Below, piece after piece: positions 3,265 to 20,813 of a stretch of 64,000 bases of DNA. A program made the position numbers and the translations under genes. Numbering within the stretch: the stretch's first letter is position 1; each line of letters starts with the position of its first letter. The stretch covers positions 186,001 through 250,000 of the forward strand of contig NC_019974.1 of the NCBI RefSeq assembly GCF_000328685.1, in the 5' to 3' direction. The notes under the pieces were generated by a model. The model ran no database searches. It was not told the origin of the DNA and was given only the letters and a program-made list of their open reading frames with translations. The stretch is from Natronococcus occultus SP4 (GTDB lineage: Archaea > Halobacteriota > Halobacteria > Halobacteriales > Natrialbaceae).

Positions 3265-4008
3265 ATGGACCCTGCGGTACTGCGGGAAGATATGGTCGAC
3301 GGCCTCGAGTCGCCGACCAAGGTGGCCCTCGACGACGAGGCCGTCGCCATCGCCATGCGTGACGTCCCCCGTCACGAGTTCCTCGAGGACGACCACGCTG
3401 CCTACGCCGATCGAGCACACGAGGTCCTCGAGACCCGCGTCCTCGCACCGAGTACGGTCGCCCAGCTGTTCGAAGCGCTCGCGATCGAGAACGGCGACGA
3501 CGTGTTGATCGTCGGCGCCGGGATCGGCTACACGGCAGCGGTAGCAGCCGAGATCGTCGGCGAGCACCGCGTTCACGCCGTCGATATCTCGCGGCCGCTG
3601 GTCTACGCGGCCCGGACCAACCTCGAGCGAGCGGGGTACCAGGGCGTCCTCGTCGATCGTCGCGACGGCGCCGGCGGACTTCCCGAGTACGCCCCCTTCG
3701 ATCGGATCCTCCTCGAGGCAGCCGCGGTCGATCCGCCCCGCGCGCTGCTGGCCCAGCTCGCGGACGGCGGCCGTCTCGTTCTCCCTCGCGGGACCCAGCC
3801 ACAGCGGATCACGGCCGTCGATCCCGACGGCTCGAGCGACGAGTTCGGCGTCGTCTCGTTCGATCCGCTCCTGCTGGAGGGCGAGCAGTCCGGCGCCGTC
3901 GAGCGCAACCGAACCGATCGCGAGGACGTCGAGTACGCCCGCCGCCGGGCGGACTCGCGAACGGGCTGGGAACAGGAGTGGATCGAGTGGGACGATCGGC
4001 TCCGCTGA
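3265..4008 (+). CDS. Protein-L-isoaspartate methyltransferase-like protein, diverged paralogue
   Basis: 247 residues from ATG 3265. It aligns with the preceding pcm gene across the N-terminal RDVPRHEFL stretch (32-40) and the SAM-binding motif VLIVGAGIGYT (80-90). It lacks the family's QTIS-x-P segment: the matching place reads VLETRVLAPSTVAQ (55-67). The basic C-terminal tail beyond about residue 215 is an extension. SAM binding is well supported, whereas repair of isoaspartate is doubtful because a key substrate-side motif has changed. It may methylate another target or act together with the first copy. Confidence 0.82.
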   Translation: MDPAVLREDMVDGLESPTKVALDDEAVAIAMRDVPRHEFLEDDHAAYADRAHEVLETRVLAPSTVAQLFEALAIENGDDVLIVGAGIGYTAAVAAEIVGEHRVHAVDISRPLVYAARTNLERAGYQGVLVDRRDGAGGLPEYAPFDRILLEAAAVDPPRALLAQLADGGRLVLPRGTQPQRITAVDPDGSSDEFGVVSFDPLLLEGEQSGAVERNRTDREDVEYARRRADSRTGWEQEWIEWDDRLR

Positions 4009-4480: not shown

Positions 4481-4587
4481 CGAAAAATTGAGAGAACCTG
4501 ATCTAGTCGCCTGTACCGGTACCCGAGGGTAGGGACCTGTTATTATGTTTCCGACACCGCGAGCCGCTGCTTACGATACTGAGAAAG

Positions 4588-4660
4588 CGCCCGAGGCGGG
4601 ATTTGAACCCGCGTCACGACCGTGACAGGGTCGTATGATGGGCCACTACACCACCCGGGC
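4588..4660 (-). tRNA. tRNA-Asp (GTC), copy 2
   Basis: A 73-nt cloverleaf on the minus strand. The acceptor GCCCGGG pairs with CTCGGGC, the discriminator is G73, the anticodon loop CTGTCAC gives GTC, and the T-loop is GTTCAAATC. CCA is not encoded. Only 18 bases separate it from the other copy, so both are probably cut from one transcript starting near 4775. Apart from one acceptor-stem position on the 5' side and two on the 3' side, the two copies are identical. Confidence 0.97.
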
Positions 4661-4678
4661 AGACAAGTCGCAAGAAAG

Positions 4679-4751
4679 CGCCCGGAGCGGGATTTGAACC
4701 CGCGTCACGACCGTGACAGGGTCGTATGATGGGCCACTACACCATCCGGGC
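4679..4751 (-). tRNA. tRNA-Asp (GTC), copy 1
   Basis: A 73-nt cloverleaf on the minus strand. The acceptor GCCCGGA pairs with TCCGGGC, the discriminator is G73 and the anticodon is GTC. Three base differences from the neighbouring copy all fall in the acceptor stem and preserve pairing. It is the promoter-proximal member of the pair, with a TATA-like element at 4796-4806. CCA is not encoded. Confidence 0.97.
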
Positions 4752-14425: not shown

Positions 14426-14470
14426 AACGCTTCATCTTCTTTCCTAGAAATCCCAGATCTATGTGGCTGG

Positions 14471-16468
14471 TTATTCAAGATCACTGAGAGTGATATCATC
14501 ACTCCAATACATTTCTCCATCTATCAAAACTGGTATCGGTCCTCGATCAAGATATTCTAATAGTTCCGTCTTTTTAATCGAGATTGGCCCGATATTGTTG
14601 GATAGGTGATGGATATTGTTTGAATTGAAATTAGGTGATCTAATACTGCCTTTTTGCCTGGTAGGATTGTAGGTATATATATTTACGCGGATATTCTCGC
14701 CGCTTGTATCCAAAACAGAGCAAACAGACGGGACCCCTGTTGTTGATTGTGCGATTGATGTCGTACCATCACCGACGATACGGTATCGATTTCCAGCGGA
14801 AGCAGTTGTTTGTAGAACATCAAGAGTTGCCGAGAATGAATAGCCGAAGTTTAACAGCCGGGCAATTATGCTTCCTGTCGTCACTGCATTATCATTCTGA
14901 ACATCGTCAAGTGTTACAATCCCTCCTAAACTCCCGGCTTCAACAAGTGTTCTCCCCTGTTCATATGACTGGCATGCATTGAGCAAAAACGATTTTGCCT
15001 TTACGTTATTAATAGATGATGGGTCTAATTTCCCATCTGAACAGCGAAAGCCATCTCTATCTATATGTCCGATATAGTGTACAAAGTCATTCTGAGAGGT
15101 GAAGATGCTCTTGAGTTCGGTAGTCGTCAAATCATGGTGGATCGTTACAGAAAACGGGAGCTCTTCACGGTTTCCGTATGTTCCATAGACCTCTATAAGT
15201 TCATCATCCATATCTAACTCATTACAGACAATCTCTATTTCGAGATCCCCTTCTTTCGGTGAACGACAGATCTTATTATGAAATGCTGATAACGGAACTG
15301 CGCTTGTATTCTCCGAGCCAGTACTATAATTCCAAGTTTGTTTAACTGATAAGATATTTGATAACGCCTCTACAGCTTCATCCTCGAAATCTGGATCTGG
15401 CTGAGGTTGGTCGATACGGCCGGTAGTGATAGATGACAATTGATTGGCAAGAAACGGTAGAAATTGCAGGTGGTCACTACTTGGCTGAACTTTCGTTTTA
15501 GGGTACCACTCGGGATAGTGCGATTCCAGCATAGAGAAAGGAATTTCAAGATATGTTTCTAGTTGCTTAGAAAGAGATTGCTCGTATACAGTTGGGATAT
15601 CGAACTCAAGCAGCGGTTCGATTACTTGCCGCTCATGTACTGGTCCCGGTGAGGAATCTTCAGTTCTGATTATACAATCCAAATAAAAAATATGCTTTAG
15701 GAGCCGGCTGACTGTCGATTCGAAGTCGTTTTCATTTTCCAGTCGGAAGGAAAACCCGTTTTTGGTACTGAGACGTGGCTCTGAACTGGGAACTACCTCT
15801 GCACCCAGATAATATGCAAGCGGTGTGACGGTGAATATATAATCGAACGTGGGTGGGACTTCTATCTGAACACCGGTTTTCGGACGTTTGAGATCATCTG
15901 GGATATCTAGCTTGTTACCAATCTGAAGAAGTGGTGGATGCTGGCGAAGGGTAGGGTAAGAACGTTGTGGCCCCGTTTCTTTGAGCGCTGAACCAAACAT
16001 GGAGACAGCTTCCATCACGTCGGTCGGGTTTGGCGGCGTCTTGATCCGATCAATTGGAGCGCTCTGAGCAGAACGAGCCCCAATCACTATTGGTGTTGGT
16101 TTAGAAACGTCAATACGTGTCTGGCCGTTCTCAACGTGTATCCCTAACTCTCCCTCAATCTGAATGAGAATTTTCAACGGAGTCGATATATCGAACGTAT
16201 AGCTTTTGTCTGGAAGAGAAAAGCTTTCGTGCGCCGCTACATTAGATAGAATTGAACCATTTTGATCGAGTATATAAGTACTTTCCTTTTGGGGAAGTAC
16301 AACGGTACTCGTGGTGGTCCTTACGGCTGTATCAACGTCATGTTGGATGGTAGATTGACATATTCTTTCGATTTCACAGCCACCTGGTATCCTAACCTGG
16401 TATCTATGGCGTGTGATTGGATCAATTATTTCCAGTCCGCTTTCGGTTGATCGGAATTTCGGATCCAT
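14471..16468 (-). CDS. CHAT-domain (caspase-like) protein, copy 1
   Basis: 665 residues from ATG 16468. This start, rather than the ATG at 16495, lines up with the first residue of the paralogue at 16931-18991. The N-terminal third looks beta-rich, a middle part from about 150 to 350 is strongly shared with the paralogue (SYPTLRxHPP, FTVxPLAYYLGA, QTYLEIPF-like), and the C-terminal part is the CHAT-type peptidase. DFVHYIGHID supplies the likely catalytic His (H468, with H464 nearby) and LLNACQS the likely Cys (C499); AGSLGGIVTLDDV follows as in CHAT proteins. No signal peptide is seen, so it is probably cytoplasmic. Codon use is AT-rich and unlike the flanking genes, pointing to acquisition. 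The substrate is unknown; the small peptide gene at 16804 is a candidate partner. Confidence 0.78.
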   Translation of the reverse strand: MDPKFRSTESGLEIIDPITRHRYQVRIPGGCEIERICQSTIQHDVDTAVRTTTSTVVLPQKESTYILDQNGSILSNVAAHESFSLPDKSYTFDISTPLKILIQIEGELGIHVENGQTRIDVSKPTPIVIGARSAQSAPIDRIKTPPNPTDVMEAVSMFGSALKETGPQRSYPTLRQHPPLLQIGNKLDIPDDLKRPKTGVQIEVPPTFDYIFTVTPLAYYLGAEVVPSSEPRLSTKNGFSFRLENENDFESTVSRLLKHIFYLDCIIRTEDSSPGPVHERQVIEPLLEFDIPTVYEQSLSKQLETYLEIPFSMLESHYPEWYPKTKVQPSSDHLQFLPFLANQLSSITTGRIDQPQPDPDFEDEAVEALSNILSVKQTWNYSTGSENTSAVPLSAFHNKICRSPKEGDLEIEIVCNELDMDDELIEVYGTYGNREELPFSVTIHHDLTTTELKSIFTSQNDFVHYIGHIDRDGFRCSDGKLDPSSINNVKAKSFLLNACQSYEQGRTLVEAGSLGGIVTLDDVQNDNAVTTGSIIARLLNFGYSFSATLDVLQTTASAGNRYRIVGDGTTSIAQSTTGVPSVCSVLDTSGENIRVNIYTYNPTRQKGSIRSPNFNSNNIHHLSNNIGPISIKKTELLEYLDRGPIPVLIDGEMYWSDDITLSDLE

Positions 16469-16803
16469 TGGAGGGCCAGATAGACTAATTGACACACCTT
16501 ATCTATATATGACGTGAAATTGATCGATCCACTATTCTATACTTTAGGCCATATTATCGGTGCTCTGTTATAATGTTTTCAGTTTTCCATGCATTGCCAG
16601 CCTGTGGATCTACCACTCACATATCCATAACCGATAAAAACACTGCGTCTTGGTCTGGTTGATGAAAGTTCTGTGTTCGCTCGTAGTGAACCATACCTCA
16701 ACCATAAATTATTTTATTGACTCTACATGATATACCTATGGTTCCTAGGTAGAATATATTAAAATAAATTTATTATCTGTTGCAACAATAGTTCGAATGC
16801 ACC
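16469..16803. other. AT-rich intergenic region between CHAT copy 1 and the peptide gene
   Basis: About 335 bases with an AT content far above the chromosome's norm. It must hold the divergent promoters of the leftward CHAT gene (a TATA-like element around 16528-16540 on the minus strand) and of the rightward peptide gene (16753-16777). I see no convincing extra gene, no long inverted repeat and no recognisable transposon end in it. Confidence 0.6.
16753..16777 (+). promoter_or_regulatory. Strong TATA element before the small-peptide gene
   Basis: The stretch is almost pure A/T (aatatattaaaataaattta). Its centre lies about 35-45 bases before the ATG at 16804, so initiation around 16790 with a leader of roughly 10-15 nt is expected. 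A TATA element this strong suggests the peptide could be made at high level, or that it is normally held off by a regulator. Confidence 0.55.
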
Positions 16804-16929
16804 ATGATGGACTTAAGCAAGTACCTCAAGAACCACCCGCGAATGATTGGCGTTCTGTTCACCATTCTCCTGGCCATTTCACAGGCAGGAATGGTGGCAG
16901 CAAACGGTAGTGCACACGCAGGCCCCTAA
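16804..16929 (+). CDS. 41-residue hydrophobic peptide between the CHAT genes
   Basis: A 41-residue frame, ATG 16804 (or the next codon, ATG 16807) to TAA 16929, on the strand opposite to both CHAT genes. It ends 1 base before the stop codon of copy 2. The N-terminal MMDLSKYLKNHPR is basic and amphipathic. Residues 14-30 (MIGVLFTILLAISQAGM) form one hydrophobic helix, and the tail VAANGSAHAGP is small and polar. It resembles a class of about 40-residue haloarchaeal peptides with the same NPRM-IGVLFT core and AGP ending; I recall these as a named unknown family (DUF7503) but could not check this. Membrane insertion or export is likely. A role as partner or substrate of the neighbouring proteases is inference from position. 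Confidence 0.72.
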   Translation: MMDLSKYLKNHPRMIGVLFTILLAISQAGMVAANGSAHAGP

Positions 16930-16930
16930 G

Positions 16931-18991
16931 TTACTGAAAATCGAACTCATCGCTCCAGTAGATCGTTCCATTACTTACGACTGGAAACCGTCCTTCGTTC
17001 AAGAATTCCCGTAAATTTTCCTCACTCACCGGTATATATTCCGTACTCCCAGGAACAATATAATAAGAACTGACAGACCCTAGATGAGGAGTAAAAACAG
17101 CACCCTTCTCTGCTCGAACTGAACCATACATTTTAATTTTAACAGTAATATCGCTATTTTCTTTGTTTACTAAGCAAACATTAGGAACAACGGTTTCCGC
17201 TTGAGCGATGGTCGTTTGACCGTCACCAACCATTTGATACTGTTGGCTAATTATACTTTCTTCTTTAGCAACGTCCAATGCTCCATAGAGCGGAAATCCT
17301 TGATTCAACAATTGTGCAATAACACTCCCTATCCTGACTGCTCCACTGTTCGCAACATCACCGAATGTAACTATCCCACCTAAGCTACCAGCGTTAATTA
17401 AATATAGTCCCTGTTCGTGAGACTGACATGCGTTCAACAAGAAAGCTTTCACATTTGAATTTTTAACTGTTGCTCCGTCTAACTTCCCATTCGAACATTC
17501 AAAACCATTCACATCTATATGTCCAATATAATGTAGAAAGTCACTGTTAGTAGCTAATATTTTTCTCAGTTCTTGCGTAGATGTGTTATAGTGTAGCCTA
17601 ACATTAACCGGTAGCTCTTCTCTATCACCATATGTGCTATCTACAGATTTGACTTCTTCTCTCATATCTGAATCATTACATACCACATCGACTTCGATCG
17701 GTTCGTCTCGAGGACTTCGATCAATACTGTTTTTGAAGGCGGAAAGTGGTGCCGTGCTTATGAGCTCTGGTCCGTTCTTTCCGCTCCAGCGCTGCTGGAC
17801 TGATGCGGGTGGATCTCGTGGTTCCGGTGTTGGTGCGTTACTTCTAGTTACTTCCATATCTCGAGTAAAGGGGCTTCGTGTAAAGTCAGAGATGGCATCT
17901 ATCTCGTCTTTGAGGTCTGAGAGGTCCTGTCGATCCCCGTCTTGGGTATATATTGGCGCAAGACAATTAGTCACGAACGGTAAAAATTCAATAAACCTTG
18001 AGGAGGGTGTAAGTCGTATTTCGAATTTCCAGTCCGGAATATAGGGACGGATTTTGGAAAACGGAATTTCGAGGTACGTTTGAACTTGCTTCTCAATTGG
18101 CTGATCATACACTGATTGCATATCGTCGTCAAAAATTGATTCGATCGAATGCCGATTATGGAGGGGTAATGGTGAGATGCCCTCTGTTCTAGATATGCAG
18201 TCAAGGAAAAAAATGTGCTGTAGGACACGCTTGACCGTTGATTCAAACCCTTTCTGGCGATCGAGAGAATATGAATAACCAGTATCGGTGGTAAGTCGTG
18301 GTTGTGTCCCAGGAACGACCTTTGCTCCAAGATAATAAGCGAGCGGTCCAACGGTGAAGATATGACGGTATGTAGGAGGGGTTTGGATCTTGATACCGGT
18401 TTTCGACTGTTCCACTCCGTCCGGTATGACAAGTTTGTCCCCTCTCTCAATAGCAGGTGGATGTCCACGTAACGTCGGATACGACCGATCAGGCGTTGTT
18501 GTTTTCAGTGCAGACCCAAAGGTAGAGACCGCTTGCATAAGATCGGTTGGTTTCGTTGTCGTGGTGATTGTTCTTGCAGGACGGGTATGGTACGAACGGG
18601 CACCAAGAACTACTGCCGTTCGGCCATCCAACCCGATATGCGTTCGCTCTGGATCGGAATACACCTGGATAGAGCTATTGACCTGAGCATAGACCTTTAA
18701 CGGTCCCGACAAATCAAGCGTATACTCTCCTTTCGGTAAGGAGGCCTGCTCGTCAGGTTTCACTTCGGCGACCATCGATCCCGTCTGGTCACGAACGTAC
18801 ACGTAGTGTGTCGTCGGTAGCGTGATCGTATCGGTCGTAATCCGAACCGCTGAGTCGACGGGATACTGAATCCTGTCGCAGTCGACGGACTCAATCGAAA
18901 CCGGACTGTGTGTCGTTAACTGATATCGGTGGCGTTCGATCCGATCGATGATCTCAACCCCGTCGTCGGTCGGCTCGAACGTTGGTTTCAT
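16931..18991 (-). CDS. CHAT-domain (caspase-like) protein, copy 2
   Basis: 686 residues from ATG 18991, a clear paralogue of the gene at 14471-16468 along its whole length. Shared blocks include the N-terminal GVEIIDRIERHRYQL, the middle RSYPTLRGHPP and PLAYYLGAKVVPG, and the C-terminal peptidase. In the latter, DFLHYIGHID gives H487/H491 and LLNACQS gives C522, followed by NAGSLGGIVTFGD. A Pro/Thr-rich linker at about 375-410 has no equivalent in copy 1. No signal peptide or membrane segment is seen. Composition is AT-rich through most of the gene but rises towards its 5' end. The frame upstream at 19076-19777 is on the same strand with an 84-base gap and is probably co-transcribed. Confidence 0.78.
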   Translation of the reverse strand: MKPTFEPTDDGVEIIDRIERHRYQLTTHSPVSIESVDCDRIQYPVDSAVRITTDTITLPTTHYVYVRDQTGSMVAEVKPDEQASLPKGEYTLDLSGPLKVYAQVNSSIQVYSDPERTHIGLDGRTAVVLGARSYHTRPARTITTTTKPTDLMQAVSTFGSALKTTTPDRSYPTLRGHPPAIERGDKLVIPDGVEQSKTGIKIQTPPTYRHIFTVGPLAYYLGAKVVPGTQPRLTTDTGYSYSLDRQKGFESTVKRVLQHIFFLDCISRTEGISPLPLHNRHSIESIFDDDMQSVYDQPIEKQVQTYLEIPFSKIRPYIPDWKFEIRLTPSSRFIEFLPFVTNCLAPIYTQDGDRQDLSDLKDEIDAISDFTRSPFTRDMEVTRSNAPTPEPRDPPASVQQRWSGKNGPELISTAPLSAFKNSIDRSPRDEPIEVDVVCNDSDMREEVKSVDSTYGDREELPVNVRLHYNTSTQELRKILATNSDFLHYIGHIDVNGFECSNGKLDGATVKNSNVKAFLLNACQSHEQGLYLINAGSLGGIVTFGDVANSGAVRIGSVIAQLLNQGFPLYGALDVAKEESIISQQYQMVGDGQTTIAQAETVVPNVCLVNKENSDITVKIKMYGSVRAEKGAVFTPHLGSVSSYYIVPGSTEYIPVSEENLREFLNEGRFPVVSNGTIYWSDEFDFQ

Positions 18992-19075
18992 TTGGGAATA
19001 GCAGCCGTCGTCTCGTCTCGAGGACGCACCGTCGAACCGGTAATCTCCTCAGTCGGCATCTCGGAACACCCCTGC

Positions 19076-19777
19076 TCAGAGCTGCGTCGTCGAAATCCAG
19101 CCGGAACACAGCGATTCGTCCTTGAGCGACCAGCGTTCCTGACGGGTGCCGTTGTGTGTCCGTAACTCGACGACAACGTCGAAAAGCGGCGTGAGAACAC
19201 TGACGACGTCGCTTTCTCGATCGACTGGGAGTCGATAGTGGATCATTCCGTTGGTCGTTCGGACCCGCCCGTTCGTGAGATGAATGAACCGGAATACTCG
19301 CTCATCGCCGTAGTTCTCGAGCAAGGGTAGCAGCGAGTCGACGCCGATTCGGAGCTCCGAGGGGGCGAGTCCGTCGGCGTCGCTCTCGAAGGATTCGATC
19401 GCGTTCGAGATTTCGATCCCCAGATCGGCGAGCGTGTCGGTCATCGTCACAGGCCCGTCGGTAGACGGTATCGGTTCGTGACTGCCAGTCGCCACACTGG
19501 CGCTTCGAACGTCGATATCGTGACGGATGAGCCGGTAGCTATCCGTGGGGTAGTCGCTGACGATCGATTCGATGGATGCTCTTCCAGCGGTCGTCGAAAC
19601 CAGAATCCGTCGCCGCGAACGGTCCGTCGCGTGACCAAGGAGGCGGCGACAGGTTTCGGCCTGTTGGCTTGCCCGGGCCGACCCGACGACGAGGACGCTC
19701 GCGCCGCGTTGCTTGAGCCGAGATAGTTCCTCGATAAACGCATCATCGGGCCCGCGAGCCGGTGTCTCGGAGAGCAT
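19076..19777 (-). CDS. Haloarchaeal HTR-like / RecA-fold signalling-type protein without an intact P-loop
   Basis: 233 residues from ATG 19777. A start further upstream is possible, but this one sits about 38 bases behind a TATA-like element and begins just before the conserved segment. The stretch ELSRLKQRGASVLVVGSARA looks like the first strand of a RecA/KaiC-like fold, yet the following loop lacks the GKT/S needed to bind nucleotide. The middle (ADLGIEISNAIESF, then ELRIGVDSLLPLLENYGDERVFRFIHL) and the end (VRTTNGMIHYRLPVDRES, VVELRTHNGTRQERW) match what I recall of the haloarchaeal HTR-like DUF7504 family; unverified. It is placed to be the first gene of a transcript with CHAT copy 2. Confidence 0.6.
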   Translation of the reverse strand: MLSETPARGPDDAFIEELSRLKQRGASVLVVGSARASQQAETCRRLLGHATDRSRRRILVSTTAGRASIESIVSDYPTDSYRLIRHDIDVRSASVATGSHEPIPSTDGPVTMTDTLADLGIEISNAIESFESDADGLAPSELRIGVDSLLPLLENYGDERVFRFIHLTNGRVRTTNGMIHYRLPVDRESDVVSVLTPLFDVVVELRTHNGTRQERWSLKDESLCSGWISTTQL

Positions 19778-19810
19778 CGCCAGTATGTTCCGTACTGATG
19801 AGGTGTAAAA

Positions 19811-19820
19811 CATTAAACGT
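19811..19820 (-). promoter_or_regulatory. Probable TATA box upstream of the HTR-like gene
   Basis: acgtttaatg on the minus strand lies about 35-44 bases before ATG 19777. It decides between the alternative starts of that gene: the in-frame ATG inside this element (about 19813) would lie upstream of the expected transcription start. Confidence 0.45.
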
Positions 19821-19889
19821 TCGGGTAGCCGAGACGGACCGGGTTGCACAGATTCGAGGAGAAACCCACGGCTTCAGTCGCAGGGATCG

Positions 19890-20648
19890 TCACGCTTCGG
19901 TCGAGGAGGCGTCCTCGCCGACGTAGGTGCGGGTCGCGTCGACCAGCACCTGTCGGTAGCTGCTCGAGTCGGGGTCGCTGGCGAGTTCTCTGAATCGTCG
20001 TTTGAAGGTTTCGAAGGGAACGTTCGGCGCGTCGACCGTGGCGACGTGGGCGAGATCATACAGACGATGGTCGGCGTCGACGAGGTCGTGTCGTTCGGCG
20101 AGTGCCAGGGCGAACGCCGCGTTGACGGCCGTGATCTCGGGATCGGCGTTCGCCGAGAGCCGCGTTCGATCGGCTCGCGGCGCGCTCTCGGGTCGGTCGG
20201 CGACGGCCGCGGCGAGACTCGATTCGAGGAAGGCAAGCAGCTTCTCGCCGGGGCCGACCGAGAGCGTGATGTCGTCGGCGTAGATGTCTTTCATGTGGTT
20301 CGCGATCTGATAGCAGTGCGACAGCTTGCGCCGTTCGACGCTTTTGCCGGCAAGCGCGAGGAACAGAGCCTCTTCGGTCGACTGCGTATGAGAGGGGTGT
20401 TCCTGCTCGTATCTCGCCATGTGTGCGAACTCGTGGAGGGCGAGTTCTCGAGCCATCGCGCTCGAGGCGGCCTGTCGGGGGATGTTCAGGACGTGACGGT
20501 CGTCGTAGTGGCCGGCCCAGGTGCGGACGTCGGGATCGTCGCGGATCTCGACATCGACGGGAAGTGAGAGATCGTACTCGGTTTCGAACAGGTCTCGTGC
20601 GCTCAGAAAGGGTGCCGTCGGGCCCGAACCGTTTACTCGAATATCCAT
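19890..20648 (-). CDS. DUF5781-type protein with a zinc-metalloprotease HEFAH motif
   Basis: 252 residues from ATG 20648; this start is preferred over one five codons upstream because MDIRVNG begins the conserved region. The segment [20 protein letters not shown] contains H72-E73-x-x-H76, the zinc-binding core of gluzincin-like peptidases. A further acidic residue downstream ([12 protein letters not shown]) could be the third ligand. Haloarchaeal genomes carry this family widely, without tested function. It is transcribed away from fusA, sharing the 200-base region 20649-20850 with it. Composition is back to normal high GC, so the foreign-looking segment ends before this gene. Confidence 0.72.
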
Positions 20649-20813
20649 GCGTGTCAGTATCATGGCCCGTGACTGTATGGCTCTTACGCCCGGTTGCGCA
20701 GGCCGCCGACACCCCGACGCCGTCGGGAGATTACTGTGTGCTATTCACTCACGCAAATTAGTTTTTCATCGTCCCAGACCGCGATACGCGTCGGATTCCC
20801 CGACGACGAAACA

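Follow-up and report, generated by a model that had tools for sequence, protein, structure and literature searches.

The window analysed here, a 64,000-nucleotide stretch of the genome of Natronococcus occultus SP4 (contig NC_019974.1, 186,001-250,000), carries at its rpsG/fusA locus two paralogous genes for predicted CHAT proteases (CHAT-A and CHAT-B), a gene for a 41 amino acid peptide and a gene for a RecA-like protein without P-loop (Table 1). These four open reading frames (ORFs) had been described in an initial annotation of the locus, and all are confirmed at their positions. The peptide is the dedicated partner of the CHAT protease, and what the partners of this protease family have in common is their C-terminal tail, usually ending in Gly-Pro (GP), and not their hydrophobic segment. 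The initial annotation was correct in placing the peptide between the two CHAT genes, but the peptide is not free-standing, given the position of its stop codon next to that of CHAT-A. Peptide and CHAT-A are arranged tail to tail, while the start of the peptide faces the start of CHAT-B, for which an in-frame ATG near 16468 is the likelier start; the region between these two genes is a shared divergent region. The element aatatattaaaataaatttatta in this region is found at equal distance from the peptide across the genus, and upstream of the peptides in general such an AT-rich promoter-like element is enriched around position -45.

Table 1. Features of the CHAT locus of N. occultus SP4 (coordinates here and below are window positions)
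Feature	Position	Strand	Remarks
CHAT-A	16931-18991	-	686 aa; predicted caspase-like (CHAT) protease
CHAT-A catalytic pair	His491 codon 17519-17521; Cys522 codon 17426-17428	-	Predicted; conserved in relatives
DUF7503 partner peptide	16804-16929	+	41 aa; convergent with CHAT-A, stops 1 bp apart; Pfam PF24335
C-terminal tail NGSAHAGP of the peptide	16903-16926	+	Element shared with partners lacking a hydrophobic segment
AT-rich core-promoter-like element aatatattaaaataaatttatta	16753-16775	+	Conserved; roughly 30-50 bp upstream of the peptide start
CHAT-B, tandem paralogue of CHAT-A	14471-16495	-	His/Cys kept; no convergent peptide of its own
DUF7504 protein	19076-19849	-	Directly upstream of CHAT-A; KaiC/RecA-like fold (model), no P-loop; Pfam PF24336

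The peptide matches the Pfam family DUF7503 (72 bits, cut-off 27), and its ratio of nonsynonymous to synonymous polymorphism (pN/pS) within the genus is 0.196, showing purifying selection. In a sample of 41 genomes, 57 of the 59 DUF7503 genes face a CHAT gene in convergent orientation at a distance of up to 600 bp, in most cases less than 60 bp; the two exceptions are one gene at a contig end and one 4.5 kb from CHAT (L042 4545-11261). All 33 DUF7503-bearing genomes of this sample also carry CHAT, and no DUF7503 was found outside the Halobacteriales in a sample of genomes covering the phylum. When 80 loci were chosen by CHAT similarity alone, 72 had a DUF7503 gene, and the remaining eight comprised six with other convergent ORFs ending in GP, one that is masked and one cut by a contig end. 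This set, which favours one CHAT subfamily, gives the fair figure, since loci L035-L091 were chosen via the peptide and pooled fractions are skewed by them; ORF starts in the survey are inferred. The link of the peptide to the protease made in the initial annotation is thus upheld from both sides, with 57 of 59 peptides adjoining CHAT and 78 of 80 CHAT-picked loci having a convergent DUF7503 or GP-ended ORF, and homologues of the CHAT proteins occur mostly with a nearby partner. A convergent partner is present at 202 of 221 distinct CHAT 3' ends, most of the other 19 being CHAT-B copies. Among 124 pairs, 33 have exactly abutting stop codons and 11 a 4-bp overlap. One locus with two tandem DUF7503 ORFs beside a single CHAT gene (G056:C1:486534-486796) and one with DUF7503 on the same strand as CHAT, 1.4 kb downstream (L217, G067), were also encountered.

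The CHAT-peptide unit is found across families in several unrelated gene contexts, and those of its neighbours that were checked proved to be housekeeping genes (glyA, TbsP, RNase P p30, an EF-Tu-like GTPase and a Cdc6-like ATPase). A chance ORF was rejected as explanation, given the purifying selection acting on the peptide and the recurrence of its convergent arrangement with CHAT in different families and contexts. Compact genomes often contain convergent, overlapping genes, and the arrangement could reflect genome compaction or antisense overlap with no functional link. This is already disfavoured by the repetition of the pairing at several unrelated positions and in all 33 DUF7503-bearing genomes, and by a tail constrained at the protein level while the third position of its Pro codon varies; we regard it as hardly credible.

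The Pfam CHAT profile detects the window proteins below its cut-off (CHAT-A, E 0.27) or not at all (CHAT-B), and matches 5 of 25 relatives at E<=0.1, the best at 7.3e-5; a sequence search for relatives with solved structures gave no meaningful match. An AlphaFold2 model of CHAT-A made from 89 sequences has a predicted local distance difference test (pLDDT) of 88.3 and a predicted template modelling score of 0.88. Its best matches in the Protein Data Bank (PDB), searched with Foldseek, are SAVED-CHAT 8tl0 (E 5.6e-7), separase, gingipain and the TPR-CHAT of Craspase (7zoq/7y84). Residues H487, G490, H491 and C522 are invariant in 89 of 89 relatives, CHAT-B included. By its model, CHAT-A is a predicted protease of the caspase-hemoglobinase fold and CHAT type with an invariant His/Cys pair, in agreement with the initial annotation of the two proteins as CHAT-type paralogues. 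An export signal is not evident in CHAT-A.

The CHAT family is present in 220 of 243 Halobacteriales genomes, usually in multiple copies. Within the phylum sample, 71 Halobacteriales genomes carry it; four further genomes, all from one other family, have distant relatives, beside which a comparable peptide partner was not found. The deposited annotation of these genes is mostly "hypothetical protein", and in the two plasmids inspected the peptide is unannotated in one and "hypothetical" in the other. A pattern scan of viral contigs found no CHAT relative, and viral origin or carriage was rejected on this basis. On the CHAT tree the CHAT-B clade is monophyletic, with 10 entries, all without peptide. 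CHAT-B arose later, by tandem duplication, and is confined to this family; the pair of proteases per peptide assumed in the initial annotation is therefore not supported. In one genome of the same genus CHAT-A is split into two ORFs by internal stops (L041 5292-7348), and its peptide is intact.

Among 162 distinct DUF7503 peptides, P[RK] precedes the hydrophobic segment in 159, and the signal-peptide-like leader has an A-x-A-like c-region in 151, after which the tail has mostly 4-9 residues. GP is the end of 125 of these peptides, and most of the others have a GNGG-type tail. In the genus of the window the tail (pN/pS 0.39) is less constrained than the DUF7503 core (0.15), and the final Gly-Pro is invariant, with pN 0 over the last two codons. 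The partners of a second CHAT subfamily are convergent ORFs of about 30-115 amino acids without similarity to DUF7503, present in 19 of 21 distinct loci. They are soluble, have no hydrophobic segment and end in STYSGP, STYGGP and similar (STY[SG]GP); their pN/pS is 0.10 over the last 10 codons and 0.85 over the first 30, the latter being partly inflated by indels. GP-ended ORFs make up 19 of 179 convergent ORFs in this subfamily versus 0 of 160 in the same-strand control, and 148 of 1607 versus 3 of 1303 for the other CHATs. N. occultus itself has a CHAT of the second subfamily (C1:1492138-1494117; L092 4621-6708) in a conserved context, divergent from glyA (serine hydroxymethyltransferase), followed by a TbsP-type regulator and RNase P p30. 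A DNA-level role of the conserved tail was rejected, as the third position of the Pro codon at the junction varies and the tail units of Haloplanus ruber, described below, differ from each other only synonymously.

Tails and CHAT proteins vary together. Tail types cluster on the CHAT tree (20 changes versus 49 when shuffled), and tail distance correlates with CHAT distance (Mantel 0.41; 0 of 500 permutations). In 32 of the 38 cases compared, the closer match to a tail was the one belonging to the most similar CHAT of a different genome, and not that of a paralogue within its own genome.

Similar ends were also seen apart from the convergent partners. At L179 a second small ORF ending in NRVSTYSGP lies about 550 bp from the CHAT end on the CHAT's strand (minus-strand stop at 3912). 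A search for TY.GP ends in the N. occultus genome retrieved two unlinked soluble proteins of about 74 amino acids (C1:1094185-1094406, plus strand, and C1:2988304-2988516, minus strand). Proteins of this size in the genus (L261-L266, L271, L273, L274) end in SG[VI]TTYRGP or G[IV]DTYRGP and resemble the second-subfamily tail ASGVSTYSGP; they are possibly further tail carriers, or the likeness is a coincidence.

Haloplanus has orthologous CHATs in 12 species, 79-91% identical to that of H. ruber, with two types of partner. Three species carry a convergent DUF7503 with a single tail (..TVAAGNSGAISGP). The others carry, at the same convergent position, a soluble ORF that begins in a similar way (MSERDSGTV and variants), has no hydrophobic segment and continues into tandem repeats of [T/N]ADGNxxGISGP[Y/F/M] in 2, 4, 5, 7, 10, 13 or 14 copies, one locus being partly masked. 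The 13 units of H. ruber are identical as protein and all different in DNA (pN 0, pS 0.58). An Ala-Asp-Gly-Asn junction is present in 60 of 62 array units, at the place where the single-copy leader ends with Ala-Ala/Gly-Asn, and from its sequence Ala-Asp/Gly-Asn is a plausible caspase-type site. In 392 genomes tail arrays are restricted to Haloplanus, at the CHAT locus, and outside this genus the scan gave weak low-complexity matches only. The arrays probably derive from the DUF7503 form, because the outgroup carries that form, and have perhaps arisen more than once. The alternation of single tail and array marks out the tail as the functional unit and shows the hydrophobic leader to be dispensable, and the series of 1, 2, 4, 5, 7, 10, 13 and 14 tail copies at orthologous loci is a natural test bed.

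These partners bear directly on the role proposed in the initial annotation, in which the hydrophobic peptide is a membrane-active defence effector released by the proteases. The hydrophobic segment itself, with P[RK] before it in nearly all DUF7503 peptides, and the part that CHAT proteases take in some defence systems would suit such a model. A pore effector is nevertheless unsupported, because the second-subfamily and Haloplanus array partners lack the segment and keep the tail. Nor did a defence role find support: the contexts are syntenic and housekeeping, the family is near-universal in the Halobacteriales, PADLOC gave no match to a known defence family, so that membership of such a family was rejected, and no viral relatives were seen. 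We consider the effector model very improbable.

The protein upstream of CHAT-A belongs to Pfam DUF7504 (187.9 bits, cut-off 27). Its AlphaFold2 model (pLDDT 85) has the KaiC CI domain as best PDB match (E 8e-9, template modelling score about 0.5), and the place of the Walker A motif reads VVGSARASQQAETC, with no GK[ST]; the RecA-like protein without P-loop of the initial annotation is therefore confirmed, by model for the KaiC/RecA-like fold and by sequence for the absent Walker A. DUF7504 is directly upstream of 67 out of 146 CHAT genes and is an optional component of the unit. The AT-rich block in which these genes had been noted is real (40-46% GC versus about 64%), but it is local: low GC is specific to the rpsG/fusA locus in this genus and close relatives, whereas the GC content of CHAT genes matches that of their surroundings in Haloferax, in Haloplanus and at the other CHAT loci within the same genome. 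An AT-rich insertion was for this reason rejected as explanation. Between DUF7504 and the fusA-like gene lies a DUF5781 protein (441 bits; 19890-20663, minus strand), and elsewhere in the window there are two tandem tRNA-Asp genes with identical anticodon (4587-4751, minus strand).

Taken as a mechanism, the small gene would encode a two-part precursor. Its N-terminal leader would be exchangeable, being a signal-peptide-like or membrane segment in DUF7503 and soluble elsewhere, and would be followed by a C-terminal tail some 7-9 residues long, in most cases with Gly-Pro at its end. CHAT probably recognises this tail, whether as substrate or as ligand. Beyond recognition, CHAT-A and the peptide may well form a cognate peptide-protease pair in which cleavage of the precursor by CHAT releases the tail, to serve as a short signal or regulatory peptide, with many copies coming from the Haloplanus arrays; this is the reading we prefer, tentatively. 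DUF7504, where present, would be a candidate co-expressed accessory protein. Two features favour processing: repetition of a short identical unit, as in the arrays, is a typical property of multi-copy peptide precursors, and the Ala-Asp/Gly-Asn junction of the units is nearly constant.

A number of observations weigh against processing. The main difficulty is one of topology, since the leader is signal-like and CHAT-A has no evident export signal: the DUF7503 leader resembles an N-in signal peptide, and tail and CHAT-A might end up on opposite sides of the membrane, a problem that retention or re-import of the tail would avoid. The Asp junction is found only in the Haloplanus arrays, other tails having no common residue at this place, and some partners, a minority, have tails of the GNGG type or of other kinds. 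CHAT-B retains its catalytic residues though it has no peptide of its own. Co-inheritance on one tree, finally, accounts for part of the correlation between tails and CHATs.

Close behind processing ranks the alternative that the tail is not a product but a ligand or pseudosubstrate switching CHAT on or off, in a way resembling securin and separase or an antitoxin, with arrays raising the valency. Separase is among the best fold matches, and the constraint on the tail and its co-variation with CHAT suit binding equally with cleavage. As partners without any export segment exist, the cytoplasm is a possible meeting place of CHAT and tail. On the other hand, a free GP end is available only to the final unit of an array, so that the tail must act internally or be excised, and no conserved basic or acidic P1-like residue was found within the tails. 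We regard this alternative as a serious possibility.

A further alternative is extracellular signalling of the RRNPP or arbitrium type, with the DUF7503 tail exported by its signal peptide, trimmed, re-imported and sensed by CHAT as receptor. The signal-peptide-like leader with its A-x-A-like c-region, the shortness of the tail, the dedicated adjoining gene and the paralogue-specific tails would all fit. We consider it unlikely, as an export segment is missing from the second-subfamily partners and from the Haloplanus arrays, and no linked importer was seen.

In the open-licence literature searched there is no mention of DUF7503 and no paper combining the CHAT domain with haloarchaea, and the unit of CHAT and small gene looks undescribed as a peptide-protease pair. 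In 2012 a very high caspase-type (LEVDase) activity was described in Haloferax volcanii with no gene assigned, and the authors called for identification of the protein (PMC3615174). The CHAT family is present at no fewer than 12 loci of Haloferax, the Haloferax loci among L138-L162 have the unit of CHAT and DUF7503, and H. volcanii, used as control genome, is positive for DUF7503 and DUF7504. The CHAT family, near-universal in the Halobacteriales, is a directly testable candidate for the source of the caspase-like activity of H. volcanii. Cell-cell signalling in haloarchaea has been described as largely unexplored (PMC10223598), and if the tail is indeed cut out or sensed, the unit would add a gene-encoded peptide system to this group. 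In its widest form, which we put forward as speculative, such a system would have a tail for each CHAT, several orthogonal pairs per genome and peptides cut from single- or multi-copy precursors, the CHATs being the source of the caspase-like activity.

Several known systems have parts in common with the unit described here. In RRNPP and arbitrium systems a small precursor with a signal-like leader and a short C-terminal peptide is encoded beside the gene for the presumed receptor, and a small precursor with signal-like leader and short tail next to the CHAT gene is similar. The differences are a protease fold in place of a TPR receptor (Pfam scans of CHAT members found no TPR family, and the best folds are proteases), the convergent gene order, and the existence of signal-less and tandem-array forms. 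In bacterial gasdermin loci the gene for a caspase-like protease adjoins that for a membrane-associated product, whereas here the partner is a 41 amino acid DUF7503 and no gasdermin, and conservation across partners does not extend to the hydrophobic part. The nearest conceptual parallel, a putative CHAT protease and short active peptides, is found in heterocyst-forming cyanobacteria, where the putative CHAT protease HetF requires its active site in order to function (PMC8406250), and where the active form of the small proteins PatS and PatX is, as modelled, the short peptide ERGSGR (PMC9410556). These peptides are unrelated in sequence to the GP tails, and neither cutting of peptides by HetF is established nor a comparable gene pairing described in these two papers. 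Csx29/Csx30 of type III-E CRISPR and SAVED-CHAT share with the present unit a CHAT fold and a dedicated gene beside that of the protease. At the N. occultus locus no CRISPR, SAVED or TPR part was identified; the partner here is instead one of about 40 amino acids, defined by its C-terminal tail, encoded convergently and often with zero gap to the protease gene, and near-universal in one archaeal order.

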